Source: Verrucomicrobiota bacterium
GTDB taxonomy: Bacteria > Verrucomicrobiota > Verrucomicrobiia > Limisphaerales > Pedosphaeraceae
Assembly: GCA_021325145.1 (NCBI GenBank)
Contig: JAJPHR010000061.1
Coordinates: 62,001-126,000 of the forward strand
Length of the DNA stretch: 64,000 nucleotides
Reading direction: 5' to 3'
Shown here: one piece after another, positions 34,715 through 62,045 of the stretch
Layout of the letters: each line of letters starts with the position of its first letter
Numbering within the stretch: the stretch's first letter is position 1
The notes under the pieces: model-generated
What the model was told of the DNA's origin: nothing
What the model saw: the letters and a program-made list of their open reading frames with translations, nothing else
Databases searched by the model: none
Program-made: the position numbers and the translations under genes

Positions 34715-36511
34715 TCACTCCGCAACCACCGGTTCACTCCACGAGCGGACTTCCGTCAATTCGTAAGCCGCGACATTTTCTTTGAAGCCTTTGAGGTTCA
34801 AGCCAGGCAACGGGCGGGCTTCGATGTGACCGGCCAGCTTGTCGTACGTGGTCTGGTCGATGATCACCTGCCCCGGACCGGCTTGACCGGAAAGACGGGA
34901 GGCGAGATTCACCCGCTCGCCCAGCACGGTGTAATGCAAGCGATCTACCGAACCCATGCAGCCAGCGACAACCTGGCCGGTTGCAATTCCGATGCCGATC
35001 TTCAGTTTGTGGCGGGCGGTTTCGTTGAGCGCTTCCCGCTGTCGGATGAGTTGCAAGGCACAGCGGGCGGCATTGAGGGCATCGTTCTCGGTGGCGACCG
35101 GCGCACCAAAGACCGCCATGAGCAGGTCACCGACGAATTTGTCCAGGAAGCCGTTGTGTTCCTTGACCACGCGGGTCAGGGCCGTCATGTGTTCGTTCAA
35201 CATTTCGATGACCTCTTCCGGCGGCATGCCCTCAGTCAGCGTGGTGAAGCCGCGAACGTCGCAAAACAAAACGGTGATGTCCCGCAACTCACCGCCGAGT
35301 GCCAACTGACCGTTGACCAGTTGTTCGGCAATCCGTTCGTCGGCGACCATGTTGAGAACCGTGCGGTATTTTTCCTTTTCAGCAAGTCCCTCCGCCATCT
35401 CGTTGAATGAGGCGGCGAGCTGCCCCACTTCATCCGGGCTGCGGACGGGAACCTTGAACAGAAAGTTCCCCGCGCGAACGGCCTCGGTTCCCGCCACCAA
35501 CTCGCGAAGCGGGATGGAAAGGCTGTGGGCAATAAACAGGATGAGCAGGAGCGCCACGAACAGGGCCAGCGAGGCAACCCCGAGAATCTGCCAGCGCAAC
35601 TCCTGTTCGGTTCTCACCGCGGCGGACAGCGAGTAAAGTGAAACCTGATAGGCGGCCGGAAAAGGCGAGCCGGGATTCAACAGTTTAAAGAACAATCGTT
35701 GCGGTGTTCCGGCCAGTTTAATGGTAAACGTCCCTTGCGGCTGGCGGTTGGTCGTAAGCTGTTCCCAGACCAGCCGCAAAAACTCCGCCCGAATTTCCTC
35801 GGGAATGGTTTCCGAGTGGAGATGGCCATCGAGCCAGATGCCGCTTTTGATCCCATTCATCCGGAACATGTTCGTCTCGCTGATGTCGAGATACGGCTGG
35901 CCCAAGGCAACGGCGCCCAAAGTCTTTTGGGTGTCCGGATCAGCGACTTTGGCAACGATGACCTCGTCGAGCACATCCTTTCGTCCGTTCCCGGCGTCAC
36001 GCGCCAGGAATCCCACCAAAGGCGCATCCACGTTATCGAGTGACTTCAGGACAGTGGCCAGTTCCCGTTCAATCCGCCGGCGCGCCGCCTGCAATGCGGG
36101 TCCCACTCGCTGTTCCGGCGAGCGCAGGATTGCGCCGTCCGCGTCGAGGATGCGGAAGAAGGTGGTTCCCCTGCCCAACATCTGCCGCCCGCGCGGCGTG
36201 GGGACGTTCAACTCGTTGGTGGCGACGCGATAGATTTCCGCCACATCACCGCCGCGCAAGGCCTGGCGGAGATCGGGCGAGCGGGCCAGTTGCTCGCAAC
36301 CGTCCTTGATGGAACCGAGCCGCGCTTCCTGCTGTTTGGCGAAGAAGTTGACCTCGGTCTCAAACTGGTCCTGGTAAAGCTTCTCATAAGTGGCCTGCAC
36401 CTTTTGCTCGGTGGCGGACAACATCGCCACGGTCACGCCCGCGACGACCAGCATCATCGTCAACAGCAGTTTGATTCGAAAGCTCAGGACGATCATTGTC
36501 GCCGCAAGCAT
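34715..36511 (-). CDS. Membrane adenylate cyclase with HAMP domain
   Basis: 598 residues. A transmembrane helix near residues 12-32 and another near 310-335 bracket a large periplasmic sensor part with no recognised name. A HAMP segment follows (IPLRELVAGTEAVRAGNFLF). The class III cyclase domain covers about residues 395-580: VLFCDVRGFTTLTEG (first metal Asp), FLDKFVGDLLMAVFGAP (Lys and second metal Asp), and VLGERVNLASRLSG. The motif set is complete, so it should make cAMP in response to an external signal. An alternative start is MIVLSF at residue 6. Confidence 0.92.
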   Translation of the reverse strand: MLAATMIVLSFRIKLLLTMMLVVAGVTVAMLSATEQKVQATYEKLYQDQFETEVNFFAKQQEARLGSIKDGCEQLARSPDLRQALRGGDVAEIYRVATNELNVPTPRGRQMLGRGTTFFRILDADGAILRSPEQRVGPALQAARRRIERELATVLKSLDNVDAPLVGFLARDAGNGRKDVLDEVIVAKVADPDTQKTLGAVALGQPYLDISETNMFRMNGIKSGIWLDGHLHSETIPEEIRAEFLRLVWEQLTTNRQPQGTFTIKLAGTPQRLFFKLLNPGSPFPAAYQVSLYSLSAAVRTEQELRWQILGVASLALFVALLLILFIAHSLSIPLRELVAGTEAVRAGNFLFKVPVRSPDEVGQLAASFNEMAEGLAEKEKYRTVLNMVADERIAEQLVNGQLALGGELRDITVLFCDVRGFTTLTEGMPPEEVIEMLNEHMTALTRVVKEHNGFLDKFVGDLLMAVFGAPVATENDALNAARCALQLIRQREALNETARHKLKIGIGIATGQVVAGCMGSVDRLHYTVLGERVNLASRLSGQAGPGQVIIDQTTYDKLAGHIEARPLPGLNLKGFKENVAAYELTEVRSWSEPVVAE

Positions 36512-37783: not shown

Positions 37784-38299
37784 TCAGGCGGTGCGCTTTT
37801 GAAAGAAGTCGCTTGGATCAGCCACGTTCAGGACGGAGAGATCGAGACCGGCCTGGGGATCACGCAGGTGGGCGACCTTTAGCTGGGCGGCGATGCGGGC
37901 GCTGGCGCGGGTGGCGAAATATTTGACCGCCCCAACGCTCAGGATGGCGCGAAAAATCACCGTCAGCATGCAATATTCATCCACGTTCATCACGAACATG
38001 CTGAACTTTTCGCCTTGTTGATAGACGCTGTCGAAATTCTCCTCGTGAACGAGGTTGGCGATGGTCTGGTTGGCCATGTAGGCGCCGGAGGCCAGCGCGG
38101 CGATGGTGGTGAGATCAAACTGCTCCGTGTCACCACGGGATTGGATCAGGAACCCGCCCTTGTCGATCACGAGGGCGGTGGTGGCGTCGGTGTCCGTTAT
38201 CAGTTCGCCCAGTATGACTCTGAACTGCTGGACGTCTTCTTCAATGAGTTGTGGCAGCGTGGCCATGAGACTCGATATGTCACGCAGGTTGAGCGGCAC
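37784..38299 (-). CDS. Roadblock/LC7-domain protein (candidate MglB-like GTPase regulator)
   Basis: 171 residues. The Roadblock fold covers about residues 15-125: DVQQFRVILGELITDTDATT, ALVIDKGGFLIQSRGD, AALASGAYMANQTIANLV, FSMFVMNVDEYCML. A 45-residue tail follows. Roadblock proteins dimerise and act on Ras-like GTPases; MglB is the GTPase-activating partner of MglA in Myxococcus. Its start overlaps the end of the MglA-type gene by 20 bases, so the two are translationally coupled. The order (mglA first) is the reverse of Myxococcus. Confidence 0.88.
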   Translation of the reverse strand: MPLNLRDISSLMATLPQLIEEDVQQFRVILGELITDTDATTALVIDKGGFLIQSRGDTEQFDLTTIAALASGAYMANQTIANLVHEENFDSVYQQGEKFSMFVMNVDEYCMLTVIFRAILSVGAVKYFATRASARIAAQLKVAHLRDPQAGLDLSVLNVADPSDFFQKRTA

Positions 38300-38894
38300 C
38301 CTGGCTGATGAACTTGTTGAGCAACATGCGGGTGATCATGTTGAGCGATTCGAATACTCCTTCGCACTTGTGAGCGACAGAAGTGAAAGACGGGACCTGA
38401 ACTTCGCGATTGTTCAAAAGAAACTCCATGTAGTCGGTCGGAGCGACATTGGGCAGATCCTGTTTGTTGTATTGGAGAACATAGGGAATGTCCGCGAGGT
38501 TCAACTTGAGGGTCTTGAGGTTTTCTTCCAGGTTGTTGAAGCTCTCCACGTTCTCGGCCATTTTTTCGTATTGGGAATCGGCGACAAACACGATCCCATC
38601 CACGCCGCGGAGCACAAGCTGCCGCGTGGTGTTGTAGATGACCTGGCCGGGGACGGTGTAAAGCTGGAACTTGGTCTTGAAACCTTTGATCGACATCGCC
38701 TCGATGGGCAGGAAGTCGAAGAACAGCGTGCGGTCGGAACTGGTGGCGAGCGAGACGAGCTTGCCTTTGTTGCCGGCGGCGGTTTGAACGTGGTCGTGGA
38801 CCTGCACGAGGTTGGTGGTCTTGCCGCCCATGGCGGGACCGTAGTAAACGATCTTGACCTGCAGTTCCTTGGTTGCCTGGTTTATAATGGCCAT
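38280..38894 (-). CDS. mglA: MglA-type small GTPase
   Basis: 204 residues from the ATG at 38894; the longer frame to 39335 only reads through the upstream gene. The P-loop is YYGPAMGGKTTNL (G1), the switch-II segment YTVPGQVIYN has the MglA-type Thr-Val-Pro in place of the Ras Asp, and G4 is LQYNKQDLP. IVFVADSQYEKMAENVESF is also MglA-like. MglA GTPases set cell polarity and motility direction. Here the GTPase is flanked by two Roadblock-domain genes, and a receiver-protein operon starts in the opposite direction. The actual output is unknown. Confidence 0.92.
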   Translation of the reverse strand: MAIINQATKELQVKIVYYGPAMGGKTTNLVQVHDHVQTAAGNKGKLVSLATSSDRTLFFDFLPIEAMSIKGFKTKFQLYTVPGQVIYNTTRQLVLRGVDGIVFVADSQYEKMAENVESFNNLEENLKTLKLNLADIPYVLQYNKQDLPNVAPTDYMEFLLNNREVQVPSFTSVAHKCEGVFESLNMITRMLLNKFISQGAAQPA

Positions 38895-38902
38895 AATTCT
38901 GT

Positions 38903-41020
38903 CTATTTTGCTTTTCGATCCAATTCCGCGGCAATGGCCGCGAGTTGCGCCGTCGGCAACGCCTGCCCGGCGACACCAAATGCGGCGAAGTAAATCGCCC
39001 CGACGCGGAAGATTTTCCACGGGATGAGTCCCACCGTGAAGTTCAGGTTGTTCAGATCCCCCATTCGTAATTCGCGCGTGGACTGGCTGACGCGCCCAAA
39101 AATCTGCGGCAAAAACGCCGCCAGTGTGTCGGCGTTCATTTCCGACGGGATCTTGCTGGCCACCAGCAAGCCGTCCGGCAACGCGATGAGCGCGCCGCCG
39201 ACACCATTGAGCGCCGCGGCTTTGCTGACGATCTCGTTGGGAGTGGCGTAGCGCTGAAGAAAACTCGTTCCAGGCGAAGGTCCCTTCTTGACGACGGGAG
39301 CGGGCTCTTCGGTAGCCGCGCCATTCTCCTTCCACACGTAATAATTCGTGTCGGTGCTCTGCGGAACCGCCGGCGCCGGAGCGGGAATGGAAATCGGCAG
39401 AGGGGCCGGAACCGGAGCGGGAACCGGGACGCGAGCGTGAACCGGCGCCGCTGGCGGAGGCGCGGCCGTCTGAGGAACAGCCAGCGCCTCCGCTCCTGCG
39501 GTACCAGAAAAAAGGTTGGGAATGTTGGCGTCGATGGAAATCTTCCGTTGCGGGCGAACCGTCCGCATGCTGGCCATGAACGCGGGTGTGACTATCTTCA
39601 ACGGCAATTCCAAGGTCACGGCATCATGCGGTGACGCATGCAGCGGCGAAACCGGCGGCTTCGTCCAGGAACGAACTAGTTTCCAGGGAAACACCACCCG
39701 TCCCTGTTTGATCGCGGCTTCGATCATGCCTTGCGGCAAGGCCACCGTGGCGCCCAACAGACCGAGGGCGACAAGCTCTTGCTTGATTGGCTCCGGCCAG
39801 GCTTCCGCCAGCCCAGCCAGCGGCACGGGGAGGAAGATGGTTTCACGCGGGGCTGCCGGAGTCGGCGGCTTGGGGGCTTGTGCGGGCGGCGGCGCAAAGG
39901 ACGGATTAAACCGAATCGGTTCGGGTCCGGCATCCGGCGTCGGCAAAGCCACGGGCGCAGGCGTTGATAATTGAGGCGGCGTGAGAGTGCGCAGCGACGG
40001 CGCGGGAATCACTGCTGGTTCGCCGAAAGGAATGGCTTGAGGCGGTTCGGGCACGATCGGAGAAACCGGCTGTGCAGGCGACGCAGGCGTTGCGCGCTTG
40101 AAAACGATTTCATCCGCCGCGGGCTGCGCGGCTGGAAGCGGAGCTGGAGTCGGAGCGGGACTGCGCCGGAAAATGGGCGCTTCGGGCACAGCGGCGGGTT
40201 GCACCGGATTTACCGGGGCTGAAGGCGTGGTGCGTTTGAAAATCGGCTCTTCAGGAACAAAGGCAGGCTTTACCGGCGCAGCGGGCGGGCTGGCGCGGTT
40301 GAACGCCGGCGCATTCGGAAGCGGCACGCTCCTGGAGGGAGGCAGCGACGTGGGCGCAATCGGCGAATAGACTGGTGTGGGCGGCGGGGTTGGAGCCGTC
40401 GGAGCACTGGTTCGCTTGAAAATTGGTTCTTCGGGGGCGGGCGCCTGCCGCACTGGCGCCGCGGGCTTGAGCGTCGTGTCGGAAAAGGTAACGCGATTCT
40501 GCCCCCCGAACGGGCCGACCACTTCCGGCGGCACCTCTACGCGCTTCTGCATTGGACGTCGCGAAAGCCCGCCTGATCCCACCCGCATAAGAATCTCTTG
40601 CAACGGCAATTCGACGAGTATCCGGTCCCGATCATTCGCTGACGAGAACGTTCCGCTCGGTGAGGCTTGCCGCAGTTCACCAAAGGAAATCCGAACGGCT
40701 CCCTGCGCCAGTTGGGAAAGCACCTTCTGCATTGGGATGAAAACCTCAGCCTCACCCACTTCAGTATTTAGGACGCGATCCATGACCTCAGACGGCAGCC
40801 GTCCGATGATGGTCCGCAACGGCAACGCCAAGGTGGAGGAAGGATTGATCGGCGCGCCGTTGCCCGGCATCGGCTTCGTAACCGGTCCCGGTCCAAAATC
40901 CACGCGTGCTCGCGCAGTAGGTTGAGCAGGCGCGACCGGGGGTGGTTGGAGGGGCAAAGGTGCTTCGGCTACCTTTTCCTCGCTCCGTCTGCCAAAAAAT
41001 TTTTTAAACGTGCTCAGCAT
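38903..41020 (-). CDS. Large proline/alanine-rich protein with C-terminal Roadblock-like domain
   Basis: 705 residues from the ATG at 41020 (MLSTFKKFFGRRSEEK); an ATG at 41053 adds 11. Residues about 60-180 hold short structured segments (LPLRTIIGRLPSEVMD, AEVFIPMQKVLSQLAQG, VELPLQEILMRVG). A long Pro/Ala-rich linker follows with recurrent EEPIFKRT or EAPIFRRS phrases. Another structured segment (LPVPLAGLAEAWPEPIKQEL) follows near residue 400. The last 130 residues look like Roadblock/LC7 (NGVGGALIALPDGLLVASKI, PQIFGRVSQSTRELRMG). The stop lies 8 bases before the MglA ATG. The repeated FKRT phrases may be docking motifs. I know no named family of this full architecture. Confidence 0.78.
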   Translation of the reverse strand: MLSTFKKFFGRRSEEKVAEAPLPLQPPPVAPAQPTARARVDFGPGPVTKPMPGNGAPINPSSTLALPLRTIIGRLPSEVMDRVLNTEVGEAEVFIPMQKVLSQLAQGAVRISFGELRQASPSGTFSSANDRDRILVELPLQEILMRVGSGGLSRRPMQKRVEVPPEVVGPFGGQNRVTFSDTTLKPAAPVRQAPAPEEPIFKRTSAPTAPTPPPTPVYSPIAPTSLPPSRSVPLPNAPAFNRASPPAAPVKPAFVPEEPIFKRTTPSAPVNPVQPAAVPEAPIFRRSPAPTPAPLPAAQPAADEIVFKRATPASPAQPVSPIVPEPPQAIPFGEPAVIPAPSLRTLTPPQLSTPAPVALPTPDAGPEPIRFNPSFAPPPAQAPKPPTPAAPRETIFLPVPLAGLAEAWPEPIKQELVALGLLGATVALPQGMIEAAIKQGRVVFPWKLVRSWTKPPVSPLHASPHDAVTLELPLKIVTPAFMASMRTVRPQRKISIDANIPNLFSGTAGAEALAVPQTAAPPPAAPVHARVPVPAPVPAPLPISIPAPAPAVPQSTDTNYYVWKENGAATEEPAPVVKKGPSPGTSFLQRYATPNEIVSKAAALNGVGGALIALPDGLLVASKIPSEMNADTLAAFLPQIFGRVSQSTRELRMGDLNNLNFTVGLIPWKIFRVGAIYFAAFGVAGQALPTAQLAAIAAELDRKAK

Positions 41021-41517
41021 TTGGCTTGGATGGATTTTTGACAGTGCTGTCATGTTTCATCGACATATTTGGCCTTTCGGCAAATCGTAGTGGCGCGGCC
41101 CATTCTGCTGGTCAACCCGGCGGCATTCGCCCGGTTCCGGCCTCAGCCCGGCTCAACTCATAGACACACAGGCAGGAAGCATGCCACGGTACAACCACTT
41201 AGCCCATATTCGGCGTCCTTCGTCGTGAGGCATTCGCTGCCCAACCTCGTTTCTTTTCGCCAGCGATTCGAACGCTCCCTCGCGTGTCCCATCACTGGAC
41301 TGGGTGTGTACCATGTTGTCGGAGAATTTGTTGCTCGCGCCGTTCGCCGGCGTGCTCCGACAGAAATGCGCGCGCCCCTGAACCGTTTGTGCTCAAAAAT
41401 GCCTGTTTCCCTCCAAACGGGAATGCGACTTGCTTCCTTCCCCTAATTTGACTCGGTGAGCCGCTGAGAGCTCGCGAGTTGCAGCAGCAGCCAAAACGAC
41501 AATTGACATAAGCCATT
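41021..41517. promoter_or_regulatory. Divergent intergenic region of the GTPase cluster
   Basis: A 497-base gap between the two arms of the cluster, with no supported gene; short frames here lack protein-like character. It must hold the promoters for both arms. A TTGACA at 41503-41508 lies too close to the plus-strand ATG to be its -35 box. No clear operator palindrome is visible. Confidence 0.45.
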
Positions 41518-42609
41518 ATGCTAGTGCGCCACAAAATTCTGCTCGTTGACGACGATCAGGACTTGCTGGATCTATACCGGGAGATCCTCTCCCAATTGCC
41601 AACGCGGCCCGAGATTGCCACCTCGAGCAGTGGCGCGCGCGCCATGGCCATGCTCGAAGCTGAACCCTTCACGCTCCTGGTCTGCGATCTCAACATGCCC
41701 AAGATGGACGGGTTGCAGGTCCTCTCGATTGTCCGGCGCAAATACCCCGAGCTCCGCACCGTCGTGCTTACCTCGGTGATGGATGAGCAGTTTCGCTCGC
41801 GCGTTTATAGCCTGGGCGTCGATCTCTTCTGGCAAAAGCCCGGTTCGGGCGAGGAAATCAAGCAGTTCCTCGAGTGCATCGAATCCCTGCTCGGCCGGGA
41901 AGCTCAATCCGGATTTCGCGGCGTCCAGAGCAAAAGCCTCGTGGACCTCATCCAATTGGAATGCATCTCGCATAATTCCACCGTTCTCAAGATCACCAAC
42001 GGCCCGCTCACCGGCAGGATTTGGATTATCGATGGAGACATCATTGACGCCGCGACCGAGGAACTGACCGGCGAGGCCGCGTTCCATATCATTCTCTCTT
42101 GGAAAGCCGGCAACTTCGAATCTCTCCCGGCCGAACCCAACCACCCCCGCATCATCAACAACTCCTACCAGGGTTTGTTGCTCGAAACCGCCCAGGCTCA
42201 GGATGAAGCCCTCGGTCAAGCCGCGGCCATGGGCAGCACCCTCCAGGAGAATATCACCTTCGCCCCTGAGAATGGCGCGGCTTCACCGCTGTCGGCCCTG
42301 GCCCGTTTCGAGGGTGTCGAATTTGTCCTCGCCTTGAAGCCCGAAGTGAAAGCCGGCTTCGAAGCGCGCGGTTTGGAAAACCCGCAGCCCGTCGCTGATT
42401 GGTCCCGCCAAACGTTGGAGAACCTGCGCACGCTTGGCGACCGCCTGCAAGCGGGTCTTTTGCAGGAATGCGAATGCCTCGGCACGCAACGCCATGTTGC
42501 TCTGGCGCGGCATCAGGATTTGGACTTCTGCGTGGGATGGCAGCGGGACTTTTCCGCCACTGAAATCCGTGAATCGATGAAAAAGGTCCTTGCCTTATGG
42601 GTTTCCTGA
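41518..42609 (+). CDS. Response regulator with DUF4388 (PatA-type) domain
   Basis: 363 residues. The receiver domain covers about residues 5-125, with acidic pocket DDD at 11-13, the phospho-acceptor Asp57 in LLVCDLNMPKMDG, Thr85-Ser86 and Lys107 in FWQKPG. A DUF4388 domain follows (about 135-235: KSLVDLIQLECISHNSTVLK, GRIWIIDGDIIDAATEEL), as in PatA-like proteins. The end (about 280-360) resembles a Roadblock-like or dimerisation segment. There is no DNA-binding domain, so the output is probably protein-protein. The next gene overlaps it by 13 bases. Divergent from the MglA arm, it may report a histidine-kinase signal to the GTPase; this is inferred. Confidence 0.88.
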   Translation: MLVRHKILLVDDDQDLLDLYREILSQLPTRPEIATSSSGARAMAMLEAEPFTLLVCDLNMPKMDGLQVLSIVRRKYPELRTVVLTSVMDEQFRSRVYSLGVDLFWQKPGSGEEIKQFLECIESLLGREAQSGFRGVQSKSLVDLIQLECISHNSTVLKITNGPLTGRIWIIDGDIIDAATEELTGEAAFHIILSWKAGNFESLPAEPNHPRIINNSYQGLLLETAQAQDEALGQAAAMGSTLQENITFAPENGAASPLSALARFEGVEFVLALKPEVKAGFEARGLENPQPVADWSRQTLENLRTLGDRLQAGLLQECECLGTQRHVALARHQDLDFCVGWQRDFSATEIRESMKKVLALWVS

Positions 42610-42899
42610 GCCTCTTTGCCAAACCGGCCCCGAAGCTGGTGCGATTGCCTTCCGGCAGTTTCACCGTGGACCGGGAAGGCCGCGTGCTCGTGTCAACGCT
42701 GCCTCAGACGTTCCCAGCCGAGTTGGTGCGCGACATCGCCACCCATGTTTTGGGCGCCTTCCGCTCCGCCCAGGTGGCGAAGCTGCCGCTCTCCGAGTTG
42801 ATCATCCGTTACCCCAGTCTCAAACTTACCGCCCGCGAGTTGCGCGGCGGGGCCATTATTTTTCTAGCTCCGCAAACCTTGTCCACCAAGCTCAGATAA
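42597..42899 (+). CDS. Uncharacterised 100-residue protein in the GTPase cluster
   Basis: 100 residues, starting within the end of the receiver gene (13-base overlap). It begins MGFLSLFAKPAPKLVRL, and a segment FTVDREGRVLVSTLPQTFP resembles the start of a Roadblock-like or profilin-like strand pair. It ends with a hydrophobic GGAIIFLAPQTL. I recognise no family. Its tight overlap makes co-translation with the response regulator near certain, so it is likely part of the same signalling complex. Confidence 0.72.
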   Translation: MGFLSLFAKPAPKLVRLPSGSFTVDREGRVLVSTLPQTFPAELVRDIATHVLGAFRSAQVAKLPLSELIIRYPSLKLTARELRGGAIIFLAPQTLSTKLR

Positions 42900-42924
42900 T
42901 TACAAACCGTCCACCCCGATTATT

Positions 42925-43326
42925 ATGCAAGCGACTAAAATGAGCCAGTTGATCCAACAGTTGGAAAACTACACGGAATGCTGGAAGCAATTCATCCACT
43001 TCGTCAACGTGGCTCGCGGGAAAAAATTCAGCCCCGAGGATGAAGGCCAGTTCCTCGAAACGAAAACCGTGATCATTCAGCAATTCGAATTGATCCTCTC
43101 TTCCATCGAGGCCGGCACGCCCACGAAGGAGGAAGTCCTCGGCCTCGTCGGCAGCGCCCCGTCGTTGCGTTACCTCAGCGAGATGAATGATTCCGCCCTG
43201 CGCAACCTCGAAAGCCAGTGGCACAAACTTTACATCGGCTGGCACTCCGTGCTGGGCCAGCTCAAAGTCCGCCGCCAGGACAACGAATCCAAATCCTTTT
43301 TCGCCACGCTTATGGAGAAGAAATAG
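42925..43326 (+). CDS. Uncharacterised helical protein in the GTPase cluster
   Basis: 133 residues, 25 bases after the preceding stop; the first ATG gives MQATKMSQLIQQLENY. It is almost all helical in appearance, with amphipathic stretches LENYTECWKQFIHFVNVARG, TKTVIIQQFELILSSIEAG and DSALRNLESQWHKLYIGWHS and no hydrophobic membrane segment. I do not recognise a family. As the third gene of the receiver arm, it could be an adaptor for the Roadblock/GTPase proteins. Confidence 0.75.
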   Translation: MQATKMSQLIQQLENYTECWKQFIHFVNVARGKKFSPEDEGQFLETKTVIIQQFELILSSIEAGTPTKEEVLGLVGSAPSLRYLSEMNDSALRNLESQWHKLYIGWHSVLGQLKVRRQDNESKSFFATLMEKK

Positions 43327-61642: not shown

Positions 61643-62045
61643 GGCTGTCTGTCCTGGTCGTCGATCAAACACATTTCCGCAGTTTACCGCGCGGCCCAAC
61701 TCTCCGGGAAAGCATCCGGCAAGGCGAGTTGAAACCGGCACGATTACTGTTCGAGGAAAGGATTACAACAGCGAAGCATAAAAGGCTGTTATAAAATTGC
61801 GGCGGGATTCCACGGGGAGAAATCCGAAACCAGAAATCAGAAATCCGAACGAATCCCGAAATCTGAAGTCAGCGGATCATTCAGGTTCGGATTTTGGATT
61901 TTTCCGGCGGGGTGGTCGCTCTCGAGGGGTCTCGTCTTCCGCAGCGGTATAAAGCGGCGCTGCGCGCACGCACTCCAAGACCTGGCGGAGTTCGCCGGGC
62001 CATTGGCATTCGGTGGCGGGAATGTTCGCGCTTTCTGCCGCGTGT
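61643..62045. other. 403-base gap with low-complexity GAAATCCGA phrases
   Basis: Bases about 61817-61902 hold GAAATCCGAA, AGAAATCAGAAATCC and CCGAAATCTGAA phrases plus the inverse TTCGGATTTTGGATTT, a text-like intergenic repeat. A minus-strand frame 61877-62045 has no start of its own and no family similarity. No supported gene. Confidence 0.45.

Follow-up and report, generated by a model that had tools for sequence, protein, structure and literature searches.

A six-gene locus in a genome of the Verrucomicrobiota probably encodes an MglA polarity switch, in which a protein combining a receiver and a PATAN (DUF4388) domain would feed a signal through MglA and its Roadblock partners to type IV pili. 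Most of what is known about MglA polarity switches comes from Myxococcus, in which mglA is located apart from the genes for its receiver-domain partners, and to our knowledge the Verrucomicrobiota have hardly been studied for motility. Here, a likely parts list resides in one locus and the input domain has been changed several times on one PATAN platform. Because the parts are found together and the inputs are swapped, both the identity of the GTPase's partner and the route of the phosphate to a Ras-like switch become directly testable. The Verrucomicrobiota gain a concrete candidate for the control of pilus polarity, and a repeated domain without a database name, domain A, is defined.

The window analysed, a stretch of 64,000 nucleotides, corresponds to positions 62,001 to 126,000 of contig JAJPHR010000061.1 (GCA_021325145.1), and the cluster occupies window positions 37784-43326. 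All six open reading frames claimed in a preliminary description of this DNA were found in place, in two divergent arms. The minus strand encodes the long protein, MglA and the MglB-type Roadblock protein in this order, while the receiver-DUF4388 protein is followed by the 100-aa and the 133-aa protein on the plus strand. The features are as follows:

37784..38266, minus strand: MglB-type Roadblock protein, 160 aa from an ATG start (from a GTG start the gene reaches to 38299 and encodes 171 aa); predicted GAP or co-regulator of MglA, from the match to Robl_LC7 and MglB structures
38280..38894, minus strand: MglA, Ras-like GTPase of the Group 1 type, 204 aa, with the DRT arginine, TVPGQ, NKQD and a match to 5ymx
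38903..41020, minus strand: long scaffold-like protein, 705 aa, in an open reading frame that extends to 41053; blocks from AlphaFold2 and hhalign
38918..39253, minus strand: C-terminal Roadblock domain of the long protein, from VIA and Foldseek
39563..39844, minus strand: second copy of domain A (A2), an AlphaFold2 block homologous to A1 according to hhalign
40574..40840, minus strand: first copy of domain A (A1), without a Pfam or PDB match by sequence
41021..41517, no strand: divergent intergenic region between the arms, from sequence and coordinates
41518..42609, plus strand: receiver-DUF4388 (PATAN) protein, 363 aa, with a probable C-terminal Roadblock-like domain, from Pfam scan and profile search
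42597..42899, plus strand: 100-aa protein, probably a Roadblock standing alone, whose N-terminal tail has a conserved MGxLxxF; from profile search
42925..43326, plus strand: 133-aa protein, predicted helical bundle with a basic/aromatic C-terminal tail, from AlphaFold2

The intergenic region presumably carries the promoters of both arms, and its length varies among relatives. The 497 bp originally given for it are correct for the 705-aa start of the long protein, which is the start favoured by an alignment of relatives. The 20-bp overlap described for mglA and mglB exists if the GTG start of mglB is used and is lost with the ATG at 38266, which leaves a 13-bp gap. It is the ATG that is common to relatives, where the gap between mglA and mglB has a median of 2 nt and is negative in none of 43 loci. 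In the other arm, 29 of 34 loci show a 13-nt overlap between the stop of the receiver-DUF4388 gene and the start of the 100-aa gene. Downstream of the cluster (window 34715-36511), a membrane protein of the HAMP type that ends in an adenylate/guanylate cyclase domain was recognised by eye.

Proteins encoded in the two arms

MglA matched MglA from M. xanthus (5ymx) over its full length with an E value of 6e-61. Group 1 MglA proteins are marked by an arginine beside the G2 threonine and by TVPGQ in G3 (Wuichet and Sogaard-Andersen 2014, PMC4316618). Both DRT and TVPGQ occur in the window protein, as they do in 100 and 97 of 100 relatives, respectively, and by these motifs it belongs to Group 1. 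Its P-loop, GPAMGGKT, fits the pattern GxxxxGK[ST] and its NKQD fits [NT]KxD. Verrucomicrobia were listed with Group 5 MglA in the same survey, and Group 1 is absent from that listing (PMC4316618). The P-loop reads GPAxxGKT, with Ala in place of Gly21 of the M. xanthus protein (Gly12 of Ras), in 93 of 100 relatives. As the exchange G21V slows the Thermus MglA enzyme about 7-fold (PMC3000849), GTP hydrolysis may be tuned differently in these proteins.

The MglB-type protein scores 38.6 bits with Robl_LC7 in a Pfam scan (cut-off 23) and finds the M. xanthus and Thermus MglB structures in the PDB with E values from 4e-14 to 4e-10; mglB sits downstream of mglA in nearly all relatives. The protein would act as GAP or co-regulator of MglA. 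Assignment to the NCBIfam equivalog for Thermus MglB, NF052242, was rejected at 63.2 bits against a curated cut-off of 200. Judged by this score, the protein is a relative of the equivalog that stands outside of it.

The 705-aa protein consists of a basic/aromatic N-terminal tail, A1, a variable linker, A2, another linker and a C-terminal Roadblock domain. AlphaFold2 places the folded blocks at residues 72-160, 404-497 and 601-712 (numbered from the ATG at 41053), with pLDDT values mostly >90. The Roadblock-like end, already noted in the preliminary description, is borne out by its predicted fold: VIA-align returned Z 17.9 for an Asgard Roadblock (9jue, 116 residues, 1.9 A) and Z 16.8 for M. 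xanthus MglB (6hjm), and Foldseek an E value of 3.6e-8. When the whole protein was used in the fold search, this domain filled the results. The two A copies are homologous to each other (hhalign 99%). Searched by sequence, domain A had no match in the PDB and gave scattered weak matches in Pfam from which no family was assignable, so that we could not name it. In the phylum sample, all genomes with domain A are MglA-positive (11/11), as compared with 16 of 195 for MglA overall. The repeated EEPIFKRT phrases pointed out earlier are real, with two exact and two degenerate copies, and fall in a disordered linker. We rejected them as a functional signature for want of conservation: recurrence among 45 other long proteins is limited to one with four copies (L038) and three with single copies, which makes the phrase lineage-specific and not defining.

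The receiver-DUF4388 protein exceeds the Pfam cut-offs for Response_reg (E 1.7e-20, 73.7 bits) and for DUF4388 (E 2.3e-13, 50.7 bits), the receiver (aa 7-117) residing N-terminal to PATAN (aa 140-230). The phospho-acceptor D57, the acidic pair D11/D12 and K107 are invariant in 34 orthologues. Single-sequence Pfam scans of the C-terminus yielded nothing useful. For the C-terminal 128 residues, the lone PDB profile match is a Roadblock (E 0.98), and hhalign relates the C-terminus to the Roadblock of the long protein with 44% over 82 columns; these weak profile matches point to a probable Roadblock-like domain. PATAN is named after the N-terminus of PatA. The term "PatA type", which had been used for the protein, is nevertheless inexact, because PATAN precedes the receiver in PatA and the order found here is receiver-PATAN-(probable Roadblock).

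Both small proteins had been left without a name. This still holds for the 133-aa protein, which has no informative match, but the 100-aa protein is probably another Roadblock protein: its single PDB profile match at E<10 is the Roadblock 7yh1 (E 0.0077). Pfam Robl_LC7 is not reached above cut-off by any member of the 100-aa family, and one of 34 members touches the model at E 0.17. Since the cut-off is missed and the profile match is the sole one, we speak of a Roadblock-like protein and not of a family member. AlphaFold2 predicts the 133-aa protein as all-helical (pLDDT 92), and profile searches against the PDB gave no significant match. Assignment to a known fold was rejected, as the matches are to generic helical bundles (best Foldseek E 0.096) and the VIA Z of 13.1 is at the level flagged by the tool as common for such bundles. 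A single open frame encodes both small proteins in L178 and L221, two genomes of one genus.

Short basic/aromatic tails of a similar kind are seen on three proteins of the locus, MFxxLKKLFGKK at the N-terminus of the long protein, MGLLNLFAK at that of the 100-aa protein and SLFGKK at the C-terminus of the 133-aa protein. It is possible that they serve as a shared membrane or partner anchor.

Conservation of the arms and exchange of the input domain

The preliminary description had read the six genes as a single signalling module, had tied this reading to conservation of both arms together in relatives and had proposed a gene-neighbourhood survey of mglA-like genes. In this survey, the divergent six-gene layout was found in most of the 44 genomes of the order examined around mglA. 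A survey started independently from the 133-aa protein covered 52 loci with at least 5.5 kb of upstream DNA, the two samples sharing some organisms. The receiver-DUF4388 gene and the 100-aa gene are present in 52/52 of these loci and all six genes in 48. The layout recurs across most families of the order and is therefore not due to chance. Among 78 relatives, MglA and the 133-aa protein occur together in 43, MglA alone in three, the 133-aa protein alone in seven and neither of them in 25 (Fisher p = 4e-11, or 3e-7 when each family is represented by a single genome). Control for relatedness is partial in this test, and several of the genomes with a single arm are incomplete or cut off at contig ends. 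In genomes G018, G033, G052 and G190 the arms are unlinked and both are retained. Genome G060 and loci L131 and L160 have the receiver arm but no detectable MglA arm. The arms are thus conserved together, by linkage as well as by presence and absence, and the single module is well supported.

Loci resembling those of Limisphaerales also turned up in public MAGs labelled Acidobacteriaceae, Akkermansia muciniphila and Omnitrophota (L142, L148 and L160); labels or binning of these MAGs are probably wrong.

The 133-aa protein is not restricted to MglA-containing organisms, since it is present in genomes of family f65 in which MglA was not found. In f65 and f67 it stands away from DUF4388. At L210-L217, members of the 133-aa family lie near hisS/aspS-like genes, the f65 ones in genomes where MglA was not found, and at L218-L220 the 133-aa gene is found behind a DUF4388 gene, at a distance from MglA.

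The set of long protein, MglA and MglB persists in other orders and classes, in the same or in divergent orientation, and is adjoined there by a DUF4388 gene with varied signal domains. The PATAN protein carries FHA in four of four cases scanned (L191-L194), and this layout is shared by L195 and L196, in which FHA-like sequence was recognised by eye. It is combined with MshEN-receiver in L200 and with PAS in L207, while the PATAN proteins of L202 and L209 gave no Pfam domain besides DUF4388. In several of the loci L191-L196, the DUF4388-FHA gene is followed by nrnA (DHH)-, truB- and ribF-like genes, as judged by eye, and not by pilus genes.

The genome containing the window (G000) features a second, paralogous MglA locus on contig C107 (141000-160900; L005:8933-14212). 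It encodes a long protein, MglB and an MglA that shares 83% identity with the MglA of the window; these are preceded in the same operon by a 129-aa gene and the gene for a LamG-type-DUF4388 protein, the LamG-type match being below cut-off. Both loci together hold all four Pfam-detectable Roadblock domains of the genome. A third DUF4388 gene (contig C73:3425-3718) is unlinked to either MglA locus.

It is conceivable, if somewhat short of probable, that a plug-in GTPase switch exists throughout the phylum, with a core of MglA, MglB and the scaffold of A domains and Roadblock, with lineage-specific PATAN inputs, and with domain A as a new MglA-binding domain. If so, Asp-phosphate, probably phospho-Thr, cyclic-di-GMP or extracellular signals would feed the same Ras-like polarity switch.

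Signal flow and output

Outside the module, the neighbours that recur most are PilT/PilB-type ATPases (15 loci) and argG (12 loci); neighbour clusters with more loci were discarded as they apparently represent the module's own genes or overlapping-frame artefacts. In 11 loci, a gene for a PilT/PilU-family ATPase is located directly after mglB on the same strand, with little space between the two wherever their starts are clear, such as 4 bp in L128. Two of these 11 proteins were scanned and gave 340 and 337 bits against a curated cut-off of 319; Walker A is intact in 5/5 inspected and a VGEIR Walker B is visible. As a single clade of 23 loci (support 0.998) contains all 11 of them, the arrangement probably goes back to one event. 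In L147, genes for PilB and then PilT are situated about 3.4 and 5.2 kb past the end of the 133-aa gene, and a PilB gene is found in a like position in L070 from the same clade. PilT-family genes occur in 78/78 relatives with or without MglA, and with PilT universal in the order a correlation of the presence or absence of MglA and PilT is impossible. In Synechocystis, the PATAN regulator PixE reportedly binds PilB1 (PMC7690835). The formation of pili in Myxococcus is stimulated by MglA-GTP (PMC7519303), and co-occurrence with the pilus regulator SgmX has been described for two PATAN proteins (PMC11580455). On account of these links and of the PilT/PilB neighbours, the most likely output of the module is the placement or activity of type IV pili.

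Building on the observed gene order, domains, conservation and co-occurrence, and on PATAN signal domains that differ across lineages, we infer a physical complex with GEF and GAP roles, a direction of signal flow and a pilus output. MglA would cycle between GTP and GDP with MglB as its GAP or co-regulator, and the long protein would serve as a tailed scaffold through which Roadblock and A domains reach MglA, its basic/aromatic N-terminus possibly acting as an anchor. The receiver-PATAN protein, made together with the Roadblock-like 100-aa and the helical-bundle 133-aa protein, would form the signal-input arm. Phosphorylation of the receiver might then alter the contact of this arm with MglA or the Roadblock partners, and with it where or when MglA-GTP acts, such that PilB/PilT motors would change the placement or activity of type IV pili. 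An action of receiver phosphorylation on the GTPase, suggested already in the preliminary description, is plausible in view of the invariant D57, D11/12 and K107 and of the other signal domains in relatives.

Alternatively, two inputs might run in parallel, with MglA, MglB and the long protein setting polarity and the receiver-PATAN protein acting directly on the pilus motor ATPase while the GTPase cycle is unchanged; a common output would then explain the common locus of the arms. The reported binding of PixE to PilB1 (PMC7690835) fits this picture, as do PilB/PilT genes near some loci, the few genomes with the receiver arm but not the MglA arm and the MshEN-receiver-DUF4388 protein in L200. 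We nevertheless consider it rather unlikely, given that the probable Roadblock end of the PATAN protein and a second probable Roadblock partner point to contact with the GTPase and that the PATAN gene, irrespective of the signal domain it encodes, adjoins MglA in several classes.

A single MglA switch could also serve something other than a motility pilus, be it polarity for growth or division, a secretion/pseudopilus system or gene regulation. PilT occurs in all 78 relatives regardless of MglA, the FHA lineage lacks adjacent pilus genes, and the GTPase systems of conservons regulate specialised metabolism and development (PMC8510531, PMC4316618). Such an output is nonetheless improbable: in 11 loci a PilT/PilU-family gene is the fourth gene of the mglA operon, and PATAN and MglA are already tied to pili in the literature. 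The presence of a single arm in a few genomes might finally indicate that the arms are unrelated signalling operons with nothing in common but a divergent promoter region. This is very hard to reconcile with co-occurrence far beyond chance, even where the arms are unlinked, and with the DUF4388 gene beside the MglA set in other classes, in another orientation and with other domains. We therefore continue to favour one switch that acts through MglA on type IV pili.

Comparison with known systems

One of the closest known systems is the polarity module of Myxococcus xanthus (MglA, MglB, MglC, RomR/RomX, RomY), with which the window locus has in common an MglA of Group 1 that contains the intrinsic arginine and TVPGQ, a candidate MglB-type GAP, a receiver protein as input and more than one Roadblock protein (PMC10329633, PMC4316618). 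It differs in that the genes are clustered, the receiver protein carries PATAN, and the locus additionally encodes a long A-A-Roadblock protein and a 133-aa helical bundle. Counterparts of RomX, RomY or MglC were not recognised by sequence at the window locus. Among the NCBIfam matches listed for the receiver protein (25 of 93), the names RomR and RomX are absent, the content of RomR/RomX models in the library being unconfirmed.

The cyanobacterial regulators PixE, PixG and LsiR share the combination of receiver and PATAN and the link to type IV pili (PMC7690835). In contrast to these, the protein described here is encoded within an MglA/Roadblock locus, has its receiver at the N-terminus and possesses an extra C-terminal Roadblock-like region. 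Actinobacterial conservons (CvnA-D) resemble the locus as a compact arrangement of Ras-like GTPase, Roadblock and signal input, but here MglA is of Group 1 and not of Group 2, a PATAN protein is found instead of CvnC, and a histidine kinase gene is missing. Membership in the conservons was rejected: no kinase is encoded by the six genes, none was seen among recurring neighbours, and MglA carries TVPGQ, not GTPGQ.

PATAN genes have been noted occasionally near mglA of Groups 1 and 5 (Wuichet and Sogaard-Andersen 2014, citing Makarova 2006; PMC4316618). The association is of the same type as ours; it was occasional there, whereas here it is fixed over an order and part of a recurring set of four parts in the phylum. 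In the open-licence literature searched, we did not find the order-wide regularity, domain A or the swapping of inputs. The locus is not an ordinary response regulator beside an ordinary GTPase, nor is it a new kind of system; it represents a variant MglA polarity switch, clustered and modular.
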